The notes below the pieces were generated by a model. The model searched no databases. It worked only from the letters and a program-made list of their open reading frames with translations, and was not told the origin of the DNA. Positions 49,659 to 64,000 of a DNA stretch of 64,000 nucleotides are shown one piece after another. Position 1 is the first letter of the stretch; the number at the start of each line of letters is the position of its first letter. The position numbers and the translations under genes are program-made. The DNA lies in the NCBI GenBank assembly GCA_017642965.1, contig JAEPOJ010000002.1, forward strand, positions 1-64,000, in the 5' to 3' direction. Source of the DNA: Phycisphaerales bacterium. Lineage in GTDB: Bacteria; Planctomycetota; Phycisphaerae; Phycisphaerales; UBA1924.

Positions 49659-49897
49659 AGACAAGGCAACGCTCTCTCAGATCAATATGAAGTCTCGACA
49701 GGATCAGTGATACCAGCATACTGCCCTGATTCCGGATGAAAAGGGAAATACACACGATCTTGTACGGACAATTTTCGGCCAGCCCCGATAATTCCGCTCG
49801 ACTCACGCCCCAAAACCCGTCACAATACCATTCACCCCCGTCAACCCCTACGGCGGGCACTCATCACACACCTCAGGGGTACGCAGGAGACATCCAA

Positions 49898-50527
49898 ATG
49901 AACACCCGTTCACTCATCGCCTTCGGTGCAGGCGCACTGGCCGCATCAACGCTCGCATTCCTCGTCGCTTCCGGCCCCGAGCACGACGAGCACAAAAACA
50001 CCCATCAGCCCGACGCGATGGAAGAGATGGGCCCAGCTGAGATGATGGCGGCCATGGCCGAGAAGGCAGCCCCCGGTGAGGAGCACGAGCAGCTCATGAA
50101 AACCTGCGGCGAATGGACCGCCAAATCCAGCTTTATCATGGACCCAGCCGCGCCACCCATGGAGAGCACCGGCACCATGACCATCGAATCCGTCATGGGC
50201 GGACGCTTCGTCAAGTGCGACTTCGAGATGGACTTCATGGGACAACCGTTCAACGGCCTCTCCTACGCCGGCTACGACAAATACCACAACCAGTATGTAT
50301 CCATCTGGATGGACACCATGTCCACCAAGATCACCTACCTCGAAGGCAACCACAACGAGGACGGCGACCTGGTGATGAAGGGCATCTCATCAACACCCAT
50401 GGGCGACAACCCCATGAAGATCGTCACCACACACCACGACGACGACCACTTCACCGATCACTTCTACGACAAGATGCCCGACGGCACATGGTTCCAATCG
50501 GGCACCATCAAGTACACACGCAAGTAA
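49898..50527 (+). CDS. DUF1579-like secreted protein
   Basis: The 209-residue protein has a hydrophobic N-terminus (RSLIAFGAGALAASTLAFLV), then a His/Glu-rich spacer and a DUF1579 domain: EHEQLMKTCGEWTAKSSFIM, ESVMGGRFVKCDFEMDFMGQ, YDKYHNQYVSIWMDTMS, ending WFQSGTIKYTRK. The family has a lipocalin-like beta-barrel of unknown role. A CAGGAGA site lies 8 nt before the ATG. It is followed 9 bp later by a homologue. Confidence 0.78.
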   Translation: MNTRSLIAFGAGALAASTLAFLVASGPEHDEHKNTHQPDAMEEMGPAEMMAAMAEKAAPGEEHEQLMKTCGEWTAKSSFIMDPAAPPMESTGTMTIESVMGGRFVKCDFEMDFMGQPFNGLSYAGYDKYHNQYVSIWMDTMSTKITYLEGNHNEDGDLVMKGISSTPMGDNPMKIVTTHHDDDHFTDHFYDKMPDGTWFQSGTIKYTRK

Positions 50528-50536
50528 GGCCACGCC

Positions 50537-51067
50537 ATGAGTGACCACACAGACACCATGCCCGAAGAGCTCGCCGCCTGCGCCGCCGTCGGAAAGACCA
50601 GCCAGGAGCACGAGCTCCTCAAGCAGTTCGTCGGCCAATGGGACTCCAAAGTCACCATCTGGTTCGGAGAAGGCCAGTCCCACACCTCCGAAGGGGTCAT
50701 GACCAACGAGATGGATCTCGGCGGCCGCTTCCTCAAGCACACCTACTCGGACAGCGACGACTACTTCCACGGGCGCGGGTTCTGGGGCTACAACACCCTC
50801 GACAAGCGCTGGGAAGGGTTCTGGATCGACGACATGGCCACATTCTTCCAGGTCGACCACGGGCAGCACGACCCCAAGACCAACACATGGGAGATGACGG
50901 GCAACATGACGGACCCCGGCTCAGGCACCCCGATGCACAAGCGGACCGTCATCACCGTCAAGGACGCGGACCATCACTCGATGGAGACCTACTTCACCCC
51001 GACCCAGGGCGAGCACGCCGGCCAGGAATCCAAATGCATGGAAATCCAGTACAGCCGCAAGCCCTGA
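50537..51067 (+). CDS. DUF1579 protein (cytoplasmic paralogue)
   Basis: The 176-residue protein is a DUF1579 member without a signal peptide: EHELLKQFVGQWDSKVTIWF, TNEMDLGGRFLKHTYS, GFWGYNTLDKRWEGFWIDD, ending ESKCMEIQYSRKP. It is clearly homologous to the preceding gene product (the EHEQ/EHEL, GGRF and YSRK/YTRK blocks align). The pair may act on the same ligand in two compartments. A strong terminator follows. Confidence 0.8.
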   Translation: MSDHTDTMPEELAACAAVGKTSQEHELLKQFVGQWDSKVTIWFGEGQSHTSEGVMTNEMDLGGRFLKHTYSDSDDYFHGRGFWGYNTLDKRWEGFWIDDMATFFQVDHGQHDPKTNTWEMTGNMTDPGSGTPMHKRTVITVKDADHHSMETYFTPTQGEHAGQESKCMEIQYSRKP

Positions 51068-54866: not shown

Positions 54867-57800
54867 ATGAAATCTGCAACAATCGCTCTGCTCGCGGGCT
54901 GCTGTACCATCGCGCTCGCCCAATCGCACGATCCACTCGCCCCACGCCCCAACGGGATGTCACCCGCGACACCCGCCAAGTTCATGATCCAGGGCGGCAC
55001 GGTCCACCTCTCTCCAACAGAGTCGATCCCGGCCGACGACTCGCCGCTGATCGTGGTCGAGAACGGCAAGGTCGTGGGCATCAACACGAACACCCAGTTC
55101 GAACGCCTCGATACCAACGGCTATCAGGTCTTCAGACTCGACCCCGACAGCCACGTCTACGCCGGCTTCATCGACCCCTACATCGAGGTCAGCACCCCGG
55201 ACCTGCCGTCGAGCGAGTCCGGCACCCACTGGTCTACGCGCGTCACCCCCAACGACAACGCACTCCGCGTCGGGCTGGGATCGGGAGACGCCGAGTCGCT
55301 CCGCTCGATGGGCTTCACCACCGCCATGATCGCCCCCGACTCGGGCATCTTCCGCGGCTGGACCGCCGTCGTCTCGACCGCCGCCAGCTACGACGACCCC
55401 TCGCAGGGCAACCCGCCCATCCACCGGTCCAACGCCGGGCAGGCCATGGGCTTCGACCGCGGCAGCTGGGGCGACCGGGGCTACCCGACCTCCCACATGG
55501 GCGTCGTCGCCCTGATGCGACAGAACTTCAGCGACGCCGACACCCGGCGCGGGATGGGTGACCACGCCGACTCCAACATCCTCGACCACATCAACCCGGG
55601 CGAGACCACCTTCTATTACGACATCTCGCAGGAACTCGAGGCCGCGCTCGCCGACGACATCGCCACCGAGTTCGAGCACCCCAGCATCGTCATCGTGGAC
55701 AACGGCACCGCGCACCGCCGACTCGATCTCTTCAAAGAGATGGGCCACCCCGTCATCGTCCCGCTGCGATTCCCCGAGACGCCCGACGTGTTCAGCGTCG
55801 GCGCGATGGAGGACGTCGATCTCGCCACCCTCCAGCACTGGGAACGCGCACCGGCCAACGCACGCTGGCTCCACAACGCCGGGCTCGACGTCGCGCTGAC
55901 CACCTCCAAGCTCCGCTCCGGCGAGAAGTTCTGGAACAACCTCCACACCGCGATCGACAAGGGACTCCCCGCCGACGACGCGCTCGCCATGATCACCACC
56001 AACCCCGCGCAGATCCTCGGGCTCGAAGGGCACGGCACGATCAGCGAGGGCGCCATCGCCAACCTCGTCGTCGCCTCGGGCGACCTCTTCGACCCCAACG
56101 GTGACGCCAAGATCATCGATACCTGGATCGACGGGCGTCGCCACCACATCAGCGACGTCGAAGACGCACGATTCGACGGATCGTGGACCTCCACCATCGT
56201 CGGCACCGAACTCTCCATCGAGATCAAGATCGACGGCAAGTCCGTCACGCTCATCGACTCCGCCGGCGAGAAGCCCGTCGAGACCAAGGCCACCAAGGTC
56301 AGCATCGACGGCAACTCGATCTCGTTCCTCACCGACTACAAGGACGACGAGCACGGCGCCTACATCCACACCGCCACGCTCGCTTCCGACGGCACCATCC
56401 GCGGCACCACCATCAACCCGGCGCCCATGTCGTTCACCCCAAACCCCGATTCGTTCGAGTGGGTCGCGACGCCCAACGACGCCGCCGCGAGCATGTCCGA
56501 CTTCCGCGGCACATGGAACGCCGTGCTCTCCGATGAGCACAAGCTCGACTTCCAGATCGGCAAGGACAAGATCACCGTCATCGAGCGCGTCGAAGACGGT
56601 GACGACATCAAGCAGGACGCGTCTGAGTTCGAGCTCAAGGACGGCGTACTGACCTTCTCCTTCGAGCACGAACCGTTCGGAGACGCTGGCACCTTCAGCG
56701 TCGCGCTCACCGCGCCAGACGACGACGGCAACATCGCCGGCATGGGCACCCTCCCCTCGGGCAAGGGCTTCGGCGTCGTCGCCACCAAACAGGAGAAGGA
56801 CCCCGACCCGGTCCACACCCTCCCCGACACGCCCGACGCGCCATTCGGCCCGTTCGCGTATGGCGAAGCACCCGAGCAGGGCACCTACATCCTCCACAGC
56901 GCCACCGTCTGGACCCAGTCCGACGACGGCATCCTCGAGGACGGATGGGTGCTGATCCGCGACGGCAAGGTCGCCCAGATCGGCACCGGCGGCTACCCCC
57001 GCATCGCCGCCGAGACCATCGACGCCACCGGCATGCACATCACGCCGGGGCTCATCGACGCGCACTCGCACACCGGGCTCTTCCGCTTCGGCGTCAACGA
57101 GTCCGGGCAGGCCGTCACCTCCGAGGTCCGCATCGCCGACTCCATCGACCCCGCGCACCCGGGCTACTACCGCGAGCTCGCGGGCGGGCTCACCTCGTCG
57201 CTGCTCCTGCACGGCTCGGCAAACCCCATCGGCGGGCAGTCGCAGACCATCAAGCTCCGCTGGGACAGCGACAAGCCCAGGGATATGTACTTCGAGGATT
57301 CCAAGCCCGGCATCAAGTTCGCGCTGGGCGAGAACGTCAAGCAGTCCAACTGGAGCTCGGACGGCACCCGCTACCCCCAGACACGCCTCGGTGTCGAGAC
57401 GCTCATGCGTGACCGCTTCATCCGCGCTCAGGAGTACGCCGCACGCGGCAACAAGACCGAGGCCGGCTACCGTGACATCGAGCTCGAGACGCTCGCCCAG
57501 ATCCTCGCCGGCGACCGCCTGATCCACTGCCACTCTTACCGCCAGGATGAGATCCTCATGCTCTGCCGCCTGGCCGAGGAGTTCGGCTTCAAGATCGGCA
57601 CCTTCCAGCACGGGCTCGAGACCTACAAGGTCGCCGAGGTCGTCAAGGAGCACGCCATCGGCGCGTCCATCTTCTCCGACTGGTGGGCCTACAAGTACGA
57701 GGTCGTGGACGCGATCCCCTTCGCCGGCCCCATCAACCACGAGGTCGGGCTGCTCACCAGCTTCAACTCCGACTCCGACGACGTCGCCCGGCGCATGAAC

Positions 57801-58259
57801 GTCGAGGCGGGCAAGGCCCTCAAGTACGCCAAGCTCAGCGGCATCGAGATGACCGAGCAGGAAGCGCTCAACTTCGTCACGCTCAACCCCGCCAAGCAGC
57901 TCATGATCGACGACCGCGTCGGCTCGCTCGAGCAGGGCAAGGACGCGGACGTCGTGGTCTGGACGGGCAACCCGCTCTCGTCGCTCTCTCGACCCGAGAT
58001 GACCTTCGTCGACGGCCGCCTGCTCTTCTCACGCGACCTCGACGCTCAGATGCGTCAGCGCGACGCGGCCGAGCGCCAAAGACTGATCCAGCTCATCATC
58101 CGCGACGGCAAGCCGCTCGAAGAAAGCGACAAGCCCGACACGCACGAGCATGATCACGATCACGCCGAGCCGGACCACAACCACGATCACCACTTCAACA
58201 CCGCCCGGGGCGAGTGCGGCTGCGGCGACACGCTCCCCGCGTTCCACACCGGCTATTGA
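54867..58259 (+). CDS. Secreted double amidohydrolase fusion
   Basis: The 1130-residue protein has a signal peptide (ATIALLAGCCTIALAQS). Region 1 (~35-430) has the outer frame of an amidohydrolase (GGTVHLSP, VYAGFIDPYIEV, MITTNPAQILGLEG) but lacks the HxH metal site. Two ~100-residue beta domains follow (GSWTSTIVGTELSIEIKIDG and GTWNAVLSDEHKLDFQIGKD). Region 2 (~655-1080) is a complete amidohydrolase: DAHSHTGLF (His733, His735), IHCHSYRQDEI, GTFQHGLE, FSDWWAYK. The C-terminus is His/Asp-rich (HEHDHDHAE, HNHDHHF) then ECGCG. It probably acts on a cyclic amide or peptide in the periplasm. The next gene is a homologue of its N-terminal half. Confidence 0.82.
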   Translation: MKSATIALLAGCCTIALAQSHDPLAPRPNGMSPATPAKFMIQGGTVHLSPTESIPADDSPLIVVENGKVVGINTNTQFERLDTNGYQVFRLDPDSHVYAGFIDPYIEVSTPDLPSSESGTHWSTRVTPNDNALRVGLGSGDAESLRSMGFTTAMIAPDSGIFRGWTAVVSTAASYDDPSQGNPPIHRSNAGQAMGFDRGSWGDRGYPTSHMGVVALMRQNFSDADTRRGMGDHADSNILDHINPGETTFYYDISQELEAALADDIATEFEHPSIVIVDNGTAHRRLDLFKEMGHPVIVPLRFPETPDVFSVGAMEDVDLATLQHWERAPANARWLHNAGLDVALTTSKLRSGEKFWNNLHTAIDKGLPADDALAMITTNPAQILGLEGHGTISEGAIANLVVASGDLFDPNGDAKIIDTWIDGRRHHISDVEDARFDGSWTSTIVGTELSIEIKIDGKSVTLIDSAGEKPVETKATKVSIDGNSISFLTDYKDDEHGAYIHTATLASDGTIRGTTINPAPMSFTPNPDSFEWVATPNDAAASMSDFRGTWNAVLSDEHKLDFQIGKDKITVIERVEDGDDIKQDASEFELKDGVLTFSFEHEPFGDAGTFSVALTAPDDDGNIAGMGTLPSGKGFGVVATKQEKDPDPVHTLPDTPDAPFGPFAYGEAPEQGTYILHSATVWTQSDDGILEDGWVLIRDGKVAQIGTGGYPRIAAETIDATGMHITPGLIDAHSHTGLFRFGVNESGQAVTSEVRIADSIDPAHPGYYRELAGGLTSSLLLHGSANPIGGQSQTIKLRWDSDKPRDMYFEDSKPGIKFALGENVKQSNWSSDGTRYPQTRLGVETLMRDRFIRAQEYAARGNKTEAGYRDIELETLAQILAGDRLIHCHSYRQDEILMLCRLAEEFGFKIGTFQHGLETYKVAEVVKEHAIGASIFSDWWAYKYEVVDAIPFAGPINHEVGLLTSFNSDSDDVARRMNVEAGKALKYAKLSGIEMTEQEALNFVTLNPAKQLMIDDRVGSLEQGKDADVVVWTGNPLSSLSRPEMTFVDGRLLFSRDLDAQMRQRDAAERQRLIQLIIRDGKPLEESDKPDTHEHDHDHAEPDHNHDHHFNTARGECGCGDTLPAFHTGY

Positions 58260-58295
58260 TCATCACCATTCCACATCATCCATGAGATTCACATC

Positions 58296-59606
58296 ATGAA
58301 ACATACAACAACACTCATCACGACACTCGCCATCGCCGCTACGGGCGCATTGGCCCAGGATCTTGAGCACACCGCGCCGGCGCAGTCCAGCCCGGTCTTC
58401 CTCGTCGGCGCGACCGTGCACACCGTCTCGGGCGAGACCATCGAGAACGGCGTCGTCTCCTTCGCCGACGGGATCATCGGCATCGTCGGCAAGGCCGACG
58501 ACATCATGCCGCGCATCTCGCTGGGCCCGGACACGCAGATCGTCGACCTCTCTGGCAAGCACCTCTACCCGGGGCTGATCGACTCGGTCACCGTGCTGGG
58601 GCTCGAGGAGGTCTCGGCGGTCCGCGCCACGCTCGACCGAAACGAGGTCGGCGACATGACCCCCGAGGTCCGCGCCTACGTCGCCGTCAACCCGGACTCG
58701 ACCGTGATCCCCACCGCGCGGACCAACGGCATCCTCACATTCGGCGTCTTCCCAACCGGCGGGACCATCCCCGGGCGTGCCTCGGTCCTCAAGGCCGACG
58801 GGTGGACCACCGAGGATCTCGCCATCGATCGCGACGCGGGGGTCATCATCAACTGGCCCCGCATGCGCTACACCGGCGAAAACGCCCGTCGCCAGCGTGA
58901 GCGCCGCGATGAGCGCATCGCCGGGCTCGATGAGGTCTTCGCCAACGCGAGCGCGTATGCCGCAGATCACGACATGCGCGACCTGCGCCTGGAAGCGCTG
59001 GGCACCGTCCTGGAGGGCGCAGAAGACCAGAACCCCGTGTTCATCAACGCGGACGATTACGACCAGATCACCGCGGCGGTGAACTGGGCGACCGACACCG
59101 GGCTCAGGCCCATCATCGTCGGCGGACGCGATGCGCACCTCTGCACCGACCTGCTCGCCTCGACCGACACCCCGGTCATCATCGGCGGCACCTACGGGTT
59201 TCCCAAGCGGAACGACGGGGCTTACGACGAGCCCTACACGCTGCCGGCCAAGCTCGAGGCCGCGGGCGTGCGCTGGTCGCTGACCATGTCCGGGCGCTTC
59301 GCGCACGAGCGGAACCTGCCCGAGGCGATGGGCATCTCGGTGGCCCACGGGCTCGACCACGATGCGGCGCTGCGGGGCATCACCCTGAGCGCCGCTGAGA
59401 TCCTCGGCTTGGGCAACGAGTTGGGCTCGATCGAGCCGGGCAAGCACGCCACGCTCGTCGTGACGGACGGCGACATCCTCGATGTCACCTCGATCGTCGA
59501 GCACGCCTGGATCCAGGGTTCCGAGATCGACCTGACCAACAAGCAGACGGAGCTGCGGGATAAGTACCGTGAGAAGTACCGCCAGCTCGATCTGATCGAG
59601 GACTGA
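58296..59606 (+). CDS. Secreted amidohydrolase-like protein lacking metal site
   Basis: The 436-residue protein has a signal peptide (TLITTLAIAATGALAQ) and the composite-domain frame of an amidohydrolase (FLVGATVHTVSGETIENG, KHLYPGLIDS, VAHGLDHDAALRGITLSAAE, LGSIEPGKHATLVV). Where active enzymes have HxH after PGLID, it reads PGLIDSVTVLG, so the binuclear site is absent. It is 36 bp downstream of the double amidohydrolase, whose N-terminal half is degenerate in the same way. It may be a structural or regulatory partner of the active domain. Confidence 0.8.
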   Translation: MKHTTTLITTLAIAATGALAQDLEHTAPAQSSPVFLVGATVHTVSGETIENGVVSFADGIIGIVGKADDIMPRISLGPDTQIVDLSGKHLYPGLIDSVTVLGLEEVSAVRATLDRNEVGDMTPEVRAYVAVNPDSTVIPTARTNGILTFGVFPTGGTIPGRASVLKADGWTTEDLAIDRDAGVIINWPRMRYTGENARRQRERRDERIAGLDEVFANASAYAADHDMRDLRLEALGTVLEGAEDQNPVFINADDYDQITAAVNWATDTGLRPIIVGGRDAHLCTDLLASTDTPVIIGGTYGFPKRNDGAYDEPYTLPAKLEAAGVRWSLTMSGRFAHERNLPEAMGISVAHGLDHDAALRGITLSAAEILGLGNELGSIEPGKHATLVVTDGDILDVTSIVEHAWIQGSEIDLTNKQTELRDKYREKYRQLDLIED

Positions 59607-62098: not shown

Positions 62099-63274
62099 TC
62101 ACACCGCCAGGCCGGAGATCACGCCGTGGGCGTTCTCGTTCTTGAACTCCAGGGTGTACTCGCCGAGCACCTGCCCGCTGATCGAGTCTCCTGTGGCCGC
62201 GAGCGGCTTGTACTGGAAGCTGCGCCCCTGCATGGGCATGACGCTGATACGTGACGAATCGAGCAGCAGCACGCTGTCGGTGGGCACCCACCGGCTCATG
62301 ATGACGCGGCAGACGCCGAAGTCGCTCTCGTAGACGCTGATCATGTCCGAGAAGACCTGGTCGTCGGGCAGGTACGCGCGGCTGCCGCTGGCGAACGAGT
62401 TGATGCGTCGCTTCTGTGCGCCGCCGACGACGATGGTGTCGATGTTGCCGCTGCTCTGTTCCCAGATGGACTTGAGCGCGGCGTTGAGGACCGCCTCGTT
62501 GAGCTGGTCGGTGCCCGCGCCGTCGCCGTCGGGGATGGCGTCCATGCCCGGCATGAACACGTTGGTCTGGATGGAGTGGAGGATGCCGTTCATCGAGCGG
62601 CGGACCGTCGTCGAGCCCTGCCCATCGCTCGTCGGCGCGACGCCGTTGATGACGCAGTTCTCCAGGTCGCGCAGGAGCTCGCGCATGCGTTCCTGCTTCT
62701 GGTAGTCCACCTCGTCAGCGACGCCGTAGGCCCGGCTGGCCTGCATCGAGCCCGAGACGTCGATGCCCGCGGTGAAGATCTGCGTGAAGTTGCTCCTGCG
62801 GACGCGGCTGGTGAAACGTGCCTCTGGCGCGGCGTCGCCCTCGAGCGCCGCGTTTCCGATGATGGTGAGCTTCATGTCGTCGGTGAGTGTTGCCGCGGTG
62901 GTTGCCCCGTATCCGCGGACCAGCGCGATCTGATCGGAGGCGCTGACGACGGCGACGACCATGGCGACCTCGCCGGACTCGCCGGGCCTGATGAGATCGC
63001 CCTCGCGGAAGATGCTCGCGTCGTCGACGGTGATGGTGCTCGCGGCCTGCGGGCTCGGGTTGAAGCTCGATTGGTTGATCTGCCCGCTGTTGGGCAGCAG
63101 GGCGTCCTCGATCCATTCGTGGACCGTGGACATCGCGGCGCGTTTCGCGTCTCCGATGTGATCGAGCAGCGGCGTCTCGTGCGGGCTGACGATCCCGATG
63201 ATGTCGCTGACGTCTTCGACCAGTTCGGGGAGCTGCGTCCCCGCCGAGTATGTTGCTTTTCCTGTGAATGCCAT
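62099..63274 (-). CDS. Major capsid protein, SU10/DUF5309-type
   Basis: The 391-residue protein starts MAFTGKATYSAGTQLPELVE, then ISPHETPLLDHIGDAKRA-type sequence, HEWIEDALLP, a small beta insertion (ASTITVDDASIFREGDLIRP), SNFTQIFTAGIDVSGSMQAS, LRDLENCVINGV, and late ISVYESDFGVCRVIMSRWVP. This order is that of the phage SU10-type major capsid protein (DUF5309), an HK97-fold protein. GGGAGG lies 4 nt before the ATG. It is the anchor for calling the operon phage-like. Confidence 0.78.
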   Translation of the reverse strand: MAFTGKATYSAGTQLPELVEDVSDIIGIVSPHETPLLDHIGDAKRAAMSTVHEWIEDALLPNSGQINQSSFNPSPQAASTITVDDASIFREGDLIRPGESGEVAMVVAVVSASDQIALVRGYGATTAATLTDDMKLTIIGNAALEGDAAPEARFTSRVRRSNFTQIFTAGIDVSGSMQASRAYGVADEVDYQKQERMRELLRDLENCVINGVAPTSDGQGSTTVRRSMNGILHSIQTNVFMPGMDAIPDGDGAGTDQLNEAVLNAALKSIWEQSSGNIDTIVVGGAQKRRINSFASGSRAYLPDDQVFSDMISVYESDFGVCRVIMSRWVPTDSVLLLDSSRISVMPMQGRSFQYKPLAATGDSISGQVLGEYTLEFKNENAHGVISGLAV

Positions 63275-63349
63275 GTTGCCTCCCGTTTTTCGTTCCCTGT
63301 CTCAGTCCCTTGTTTCAAACCCATCCTGATCTGTTGCGTGTGTGCGCCT

Positions 63350-63862
63350 TTACCCACGCCGTGCACGCAGGTATCGAAGCAGCTCGCTGCGATCGCCCGT
63401 TGTGCGTGCGGTGTGCGCCATGTCGCCCAGCGGGTCCGCGGCGCCGCGCTGTGGCGCGGGCGACATCGAGACCCCGCCGGCGCTGCGCCGCGAGCACCCG
63501 AAGAGGAACGGCTTGCGATCGCACAGCTCGCGCACCGCCGCCGCCACGTCCGGCTCGTCCATCTCCGCGACGACCGCCTCTGTGAGGAGTCGCGCTGTCT
63601 CCAGGTCGACGGCTTTGGCGGCCGTGAGCTCGCGGTCGATCTCGCCGCGCCGCTCGGCGTGCACGAGTGATTCCCGCGCCTGGCTGAGCGCTGATTCCAG
63701 CTCGGAGATCTCGATGCGGAGCGCCTCGATCTGCTCCTCCGCCTCCTCCGCCCTTGCTTTCCAGATGACTTCCTCGTTCACCGCGGCGCTGTGCGTATTC
63801 GTGCTCGCGTCGCCCCCGCCGCCGTCCAGGTTGTCTGCGCCTCCCGCGCCCGATTTGCTCAT
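63350..63862 (-). CDS. Coiled-coil protein, scaffold candidate
   Basis: The 170-residue protein has a Gly/Asp/Asn-rich N-terminus (SGAGGADNLDGGGG), a long coiled coil (EEVIWKARAEEAEEQIEALR to about residue 75), and an Arg-rich C-terminus (LLRYLRARRG). Length, coiled coil and a position just before the major capsid gene fit a scaffolding protein, as in many tailed phages. Not proven. AAAGGAGA lies 5 nt before the ATG. Confidence 0.6.
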   Translation of the reverse strand: MSKSGAGGADNLDGGGGDASTNTHSAAVNEEVIWKARAEEAEEQIEALRIEISELESALSQARESLVHAERRGEIDRELTAAKAVDLETARLLTEAVVAEMDEPDVAAAVRELCDRKPFLFGCSRRSAGGVSMSPAPQRGAADPLGDMAHTARTTGDRSELLRYLRARRG

Positions 63863-63879
63863 TGTCGTTCTCCTTTGGT

Positions 63880-64000
63880 TTAGACCACGCCCGGGTCGTT
63901 CTCGTTGTATCCCAGCTCTTCGAGCACACGCTCCTCGTCCACGCCCAGCTCAAGCTTGGCCCGACCCGCGGCGATCACCGATTCCTCGTCGACCACCGGC
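63880..64000 (-). CDS. Partial CDS, possible phage portal protein C-terminus
   Basis: The last 121 nt on the minus strand encode 39 residues ending ERVLEELGYNENDPGVV and a TAA stop. The sequence (PVVDEESVIAAGRAKLELG) looks like the C-terminal tail of a phage portal protein, and its place upstream of scaffold and capsid genes fits. It is cut by the window edge, so this is a guess by position and tail character. Confidence 0.4.
   Translation of the reverse strand, partial: PVVDEESVIAAGRAKLELGVDEERVLEELGYNENDPGVV

Follow-up and report, generated by a model that had tools for sequence, protein, structure and literature searches.

A widespread bacterial gene set that combines one ligand-complete amidohydrolase module with two ligand-less homologues, likely an exported enzyme with pseudo-enzyme partners

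Two adjacent genes of a planctomycete of the order Phycisphaerales were found to encode three homologous amidohydrolase-like barrels. One of them, the C module, carries the metal ligands of a catalytic member, while the other two, N and P, have lost them. The genes lie in the window, i.e., the whole stretch of 64,000 nucleotides that was analysed; the first encodes a fusion of N, two beta domains and C, and the second encodes P (Table 1). It is likely that the products make up one exported complex, with C as the active enzyme and N and P as pseudo-enzymes. The preliminary description had already divided the 1130-residue fusion into a ligand-less half, two beta domains and a ligand-complete half, and this layout is borne out by the open frames, the ligand residues and the profile alignments. 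The two-gene arrangement is not a matter of chance, since relatives are present in 49 of the 61 genomes of the order and dN/dS is below 1 in every module.

Table 1. The two-gene set and other genes mentioned in the text (positions in the window, except where a locus is named)
Feature	Position	Strand	Basis
Fusion protein N-beta-beta-C, 1130 aa, with N-terminal signal peptide (by eye) and C-terminal tail	54867..58259	+	open frame
N module, residues 36-435, amidohydrolase-like barrel without metal ligands	54972..56171	+	hhalign to C; ligand counts
Two homologous beta domains, residues 436-542 and 543-648	56172..56810	+	all-beta secondary structure; hhalign
C module, residues 664-1075, catalytic amidohydrolase barrel	56856..58091	+	candidate ligands H733, H735, K817, H889, H915, D969
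Disordered C-terminal tail, residues about 1086-1130, His/Asp run and GECGCG (1115-1120)	58122..58256	+	pLDDT <50
P module, 436-aa exported amidohydrolase-like partner without metal ligands	58296..59606	+	open frame; VIA-align; HxH counts
First of two adjacent DUF1579 genes	49736-50527	+	
Second of two adjacent DUF1579 genes	50537-51067	+	
SU10-type major capsid protein gene	62099-63274	-	
Unnamed frame beside the capsid gene	63315-63953	-	
SPP1-type portal gene	L191:581-2092	-	

The fusion matches Amidohydro_1 and Amidohydro_3 of Pfam, and its C module scores above the cut-off of PF01979. Among solved structures, 3ooq, an amidohydrolase of Thermotoga maritima, is the best sequence match for C as well as for P (E-values of 4e-53 and 1.4e-27, respectively). 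With VIA-align, whose rows for the fusion cover residues 670-1067 only, C was superimposed on 3ooq_A with a Z of 45.0 and an rmsd of 2.2 over 365 aligned positions, and P on 3ooq_F with a Z of 46.5 and an rmsd of 2.6 over 360; both have the amidohydrolase fold. The structure model of the fusion has a pLDDT of 82.9 and a pTM of 0.76, and that of P, which consists of a signal peptide and a single barrel, 89.1 and 0.86. N is also a full amidohydrolase-like module, as its hhalign comparison with C gave a probability of 100 and an E-value of 2.6e-49 over 378 columns. The N-C, N-P and C-P profile comparisons each reached a probability of 100, so that the three modules are full-length homologues. The two beta domains align with one another as homologues (probability 99, E-value 3.9e-17), and a sequence search of the pair against solved structures returned chance-level matches only.

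In the C half, the HxH motif reads HSH (733/735) and is followed by K817, H889, H915 and D969. H733, H735, K817, H887, H889, H915 and D969 are invariant in all 112 distinct fusions of the alignment. The ligands (HxH, K817, H889, H915 and D969) were also found in 20/20 further C modules, and in 15/15 complete C modules of the three-module system of Bacteroidota, a count that omits locus L174, where C is in two pieces, and L187, a paralogue. H889 is the likely ligand of the H887/H889 pair, as H887 is replaced in some of the further C modules while H889 stays. The N half, in place of HxH, reads AGFIDPYIEV, and in the profile alignment with C no His or Asp of N falls on the remaining ligand positions. 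P reads PGLIDSVTVLGL in the same place, which, along with its frame and its homology to C, confirms the earlier view of the second gene as another metal-less paralogue. The full ligand set of a catalytic member (HxH, His, His and Asp) is, therefore, present in C and absent from N and P.

The same loss is seen in the relatives. Among N modules with letters at this site, HxH was found in none of the 101 fusion N halves, none of the 18 further modules and none of the 14 from Bacteroidota. Among P modules, it was found in 2/109 partners, 0/20 further rows and 0/17 Bacteroidota rows. Before counting, 11 duplicate rows of each kind were removed (123 fusions to 112, and 120 partners to 109). The two HxH-keeping partners (L072 and L073) have lost the remaining ligand positions, and they may be relics of an active ancestor. 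The degenerate sites are thus conserved as degenerate, which had been proposed as a check. Relatives with an intact first-half HxH, which would have pointed to recent decay, were looked for specifically; since no intact N site occurs in any of the 101 + 18 + 14 rows, recent decay is rejected.

The three modules occur in four genetic forms. With a hyphen for modules in one chain and a slash for separate genes, these are N/C/P, N-C/P, N/C-P and N-C-P, and the order is always N, C, P. Where the modules are separate genes, each has a signal-peptide-like N-terminus (by eye). P is the next same-strand frame after the fusion in 119 of the 120 loci with room for it, a count which retains some genomes twice; two more loci end at a contig edge. 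The single exception, L102, has the fusion and no P nearby. A nearby unrelated frame of that locus, on the opposite strand (L102:10813-12837, -), also ends in a GxCGC motif. Twenty Planctomycetota loci, chosen for a partner match in a long frame or for comparison, comprise six N-C-P (L149-L152, L154 and L155), seven N/C-P and four N-C/P forms, two C-P chains with N in another frame, and one locus truncated where its contig begins. The 16 regions chosen from Bacteroidota comprise ten N/C/P forms, five N-C/P forms and one paralogous pair. Such a fixed order, along with the natural fusions, is strong evidence, at the level of gene arrangement, that the modules work as a unit, but it does not prove that they bind; the linkage would be functional and not necessarily physical. 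Adjacency of the genes and fusions in every neighbouring combination also sustain the earlier suggestion that one enzyme and two pseudo-enzyme modules form a set.

The set is by no means confined to the order of the window. A scan of named genomes gave at least 588 confirmed stretches. From the matches listed in it, 80 loci were kept, of which 61 are labelled Planctomycetota, 14 fall under nine other phylum labels and 5 have no phylum. The other labels are Verrucomicrobiota (4), Ignavibacteriota (2), Pseudomonadota (2), and Bacteroidota, Calditrichota, Latescibacterota, Fidelibacterota, Cyanobacteriota and Acidobacteriota (1 each); where such labels belong to metagenome bins, they may in general be wrong. 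The Acidobacteriota locus (L091, Vicinamibacteraceae) is doubtful and likely stems from a mislabelled bin, as its contig is equal in length to contig C41 of G047, which belongs to the same order as the window. The partner profile matched, at E <= 1e-60, in 46/149 Planctomycetota genomes and in 86/148 Bacteroidota genomes, the latter figure including at least one paralogous system (G300, L187). A quick tree built from 93 modules resolves each of N, C and P as a single clade, with SH-aLRT values of 100, 100 and 99, respectively. Judging from the sequences, the three-module set is ancient and widespread, with a single origin for each module, and is not a product of recent decay. In one Hymenobacter plasmid record, such genes are annotated as 'amidohydrolase'. 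On this plasmid (Hymenobacter volaticus, NZ_CP095062.1, L174), the N-C part of the cassette is split among several annotated pieces, and a further short one follows the partner gene.

Selection acts on the modules to different extents. Against three relatives with unsaturated dS (a fourth was saturated), the barrels have a dN/dS of 0.13-0.21 (C), 0.10-0.21 (P) and 0.34-0.44 (N), the beta domains one of 0.41-0.58 and the tail one of 0.30-0.98. N changes more quickly than the other two barrels. This might count against the functional-unit model, as it fits a looser tether or a decaying domain.

Some known systems resemble the set in part. 3ooq has the same ligand pattern as C, and both share the motifs GSANP-GGQ, GEN-K, H--R-D-I and H--E-YK (EHG-E-YK). 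On account of these motifs, C should carry out metal-dependent hydrolysis of a related substrate. However, 3ooq is a single-module protein without N, beta domains, tail or P, and no paper describing its function was found in the literature searched. The amidohydrolases of COG1228, namely imidazolonepropionase HutI and Xaa-Pro dipeptidase-like enzymes, share the general fold and the metal motifs and are among the best NCBIfam matches, but the scores lie far below the cut-offs. For XaaProDiPepCaul it is 51.9 of 500, and an identity as HutI was rejected at 68.7 bits for TIGR01224 against a cut-off of 298.15. The CRMPs are non-catalytic dihydropyrimidinase homologues, which have the amidohydrolase fold without metal ligands, as do N and P, and work through assembly. 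They are, however, eukaryotic cytosolic signalling proteins with no enzyme known to be encoded alongside. Another likeness in kind is the pseudo-dihydroorotase (pDHO) of the Pseudomonas aeruginosa aspartate transcarbamoylase, a dead homologue of the amidohydrolase superfamily which is inactive and yet needed by its partner for ATCase activity (PMC7053772). In that case the active partner is a transcarbamoylase, whereas in the present set it is an amidohydrolase and the proteins are exported. The gene upstream of the fusion is a phosphofructokinase and not a transcarbamoylase, and across the 80 named loci no neighbour beyond the pair itself is shared between phyla that could name a pathway. The largest cluster of neighbours was discarded as a conserved gene, since we read it as an artefact of antisense frames in GC-rich DNA. 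The example of pDHO shows that an enzyme may be served by a dead amidohydrolase homologue (PMC7053772); a description of an amidohydrolase served by two dead amidohydrolases was not found in the literature searched.

The following working of the set is proposed. The complex would be exported, probably to the periplasm. C would be the catalytic part, with a divalent metal bound by HxH along with H889, H915, D969 and possibly K817, and would act on a small amide-, lactam- or peptide-like substrate. N and P, with their metal ligands lost, would serve as pseudo-enzyme subunits, and they most likely pack on C where homo-oligomeric relatives, e.g., 3ooq, place identical subunits. Packed in this manner, they may stabilise C and shape or gate the mouth of its active site. 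The beta pair would tether N to C, and the tail would be a mobile arm, with its conserved cysteine involved in metal or redox chemistry. The set may have arisen from a homo-oligomer that became heteromeric as two of its three kinds of barrel gave up catalysis. The ligand patterns, the old single origins, the fixed gene order, the natural fusions and the purifying selection are direct results; from them we infer the physical complex, the one-metal catalysis and the roles of N, P and the tail. A second two-gene system was seen in related genomes (L133-L137), with an active single barrel followed by a degenerate single-barrel paralogue, and it supports a habit of pairing active with dead barrels. 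Clusters of six or seven amidohydrolase-like frames, with long ones of 959-1340 aa, were also observed (L140, L141 and L142); a clear HxH-type motif is present in one frame per cluster.

Other readings of N and P have to be weighed. They may be repurposed binding proteins which capture or present a substrate, such as a peptide or a polymer end, for C to cleave. P has long invariant stretches outside the old metal site (among them E105, D114, E117, E124, N132-D134 and W170-T171), and its residues 106-114 have a pLDDT below 50 in the monomer model, as would be expected for a segment that orders on binding. However, much of the loop motif NE..TP.V...NP is present in C and 3ooq as well and may, therefore, be a structural element of the whole family. 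This role is unlikely, though it is the one that competes best. We regard it as very unlikely that N and P are active through another chemistry or a different metal site. P is close to 3ooq in fold and has a near-invariant R339, with H337-E338 in many rows, at the loop of the old Asp ligand, but in the invariant columns of N and P no alternative cluster of His, Asp or Glu ligands stands out. A view of N and P as paralogues in decay, retained by nothing more than operon inertia, is hardly credible: N is indeed the fastest-evolving module (dN/dS 0.34-0.44), but the ligand loss is common to relatives across many phyla, each module is one old clade, selection on P is as strong as on C, and the fusions keep all three modules.

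The tail of the fusion was earlier described as His/Asp-rich with a CGCG end, and it was suggested that it may load metal into the active site. The motif GECGCG is present, though 'end' is slightly loose, as it lies at 1115-1120, 10 residues before the terminus. As for conservation, it is the cysteine that holds. Cys is found in 106 of the 111 fusion tails of at least 10 aa, with two or more in 88, whereas the His-rich stretch, though frequent within the genus, is patchy outside it (H.H in 33/112 fusion rows). Of the residues in the tails, 2.75% are Cys, as compared with 0.35% in N and 0.89% in C. The commonest form is GDCGC/GECGC (45/106), while other lineages have CCGIP, EFCHH or YSCH, and the five Cys-less tails are short ones from rare lineages. 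The three-module system of Bacteroidota is represented by 16 C modules (15 regions and L174; the paralogue L187 is omitted), and 15 of these finish in a tail with Cys, in many cases DRCMEG or DACMEG. In the C-P fused chains, Cys was found in just 2/16 linkers, against 4/4 free tails in the same comparison.

From this pattern, the conserved feature of the tail is probably a mobile thiol or a metal ligand. Metal binding would fit the surroundings of the cysteine, as an acidic residue lies within 6 residues in 95/106 tails and His in 50/106. Nevertheless, metal loading by the tail cannot be needed everywhere, since the C-P chains are mostly without Cys. An obligatory disulfide of the tail cysteine with another module was rejected as a general rule, as in L116 the tail Cys is the only one of the mature set. 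A genome-wide C-terminal tag was rejected too: the own genome has four G-[DEKN]-C-G-C matches against two in the reversed control, and only the fusion has the motif near a stop. In matrix metalloproteases, a pro-peptide cysteine on the catalytic metal keeps the enzyme latent. By a similar principle, the tail Cys could be a built-in thiol switch that swings onto the catalytic metal of the exported C and keeps it latent until it is oxidised, cut or displaced; or it could hand metal to C, with the two dead barrels as a cradle presenting the Cys. We consider this extension rather improbable.

The window also holds the two DUF1579 genes, and the capsid and unnamed frames, which, together with the portal frame, sit among chromosomal genes such as those for phosphoglucomutase and an ATP synthase subunit. 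The capsid family is present, mostly in one copy, in 49 of the 61 genomes of the order and in 0/14 controls; within the genus, the distance between the capsid gene and the two amidohydrolase genes is usually a few kb. This looks like a vertically kept cluster of head genes, either a domesticated head or something akin to a gene-transfer agent.

The contribution of the pseudo-enzymes can be tested with natural constructs, as the modules occur both separate and fused in nature. Two of the three modules cannot be ordinary metallo-enzymes, a fact hidden by the name 'amidohydrolase'. The set is kept together across many bacterial phyla, whether as separate genes or fused, which suggests that the dead modules take part in the working of the enzyme.
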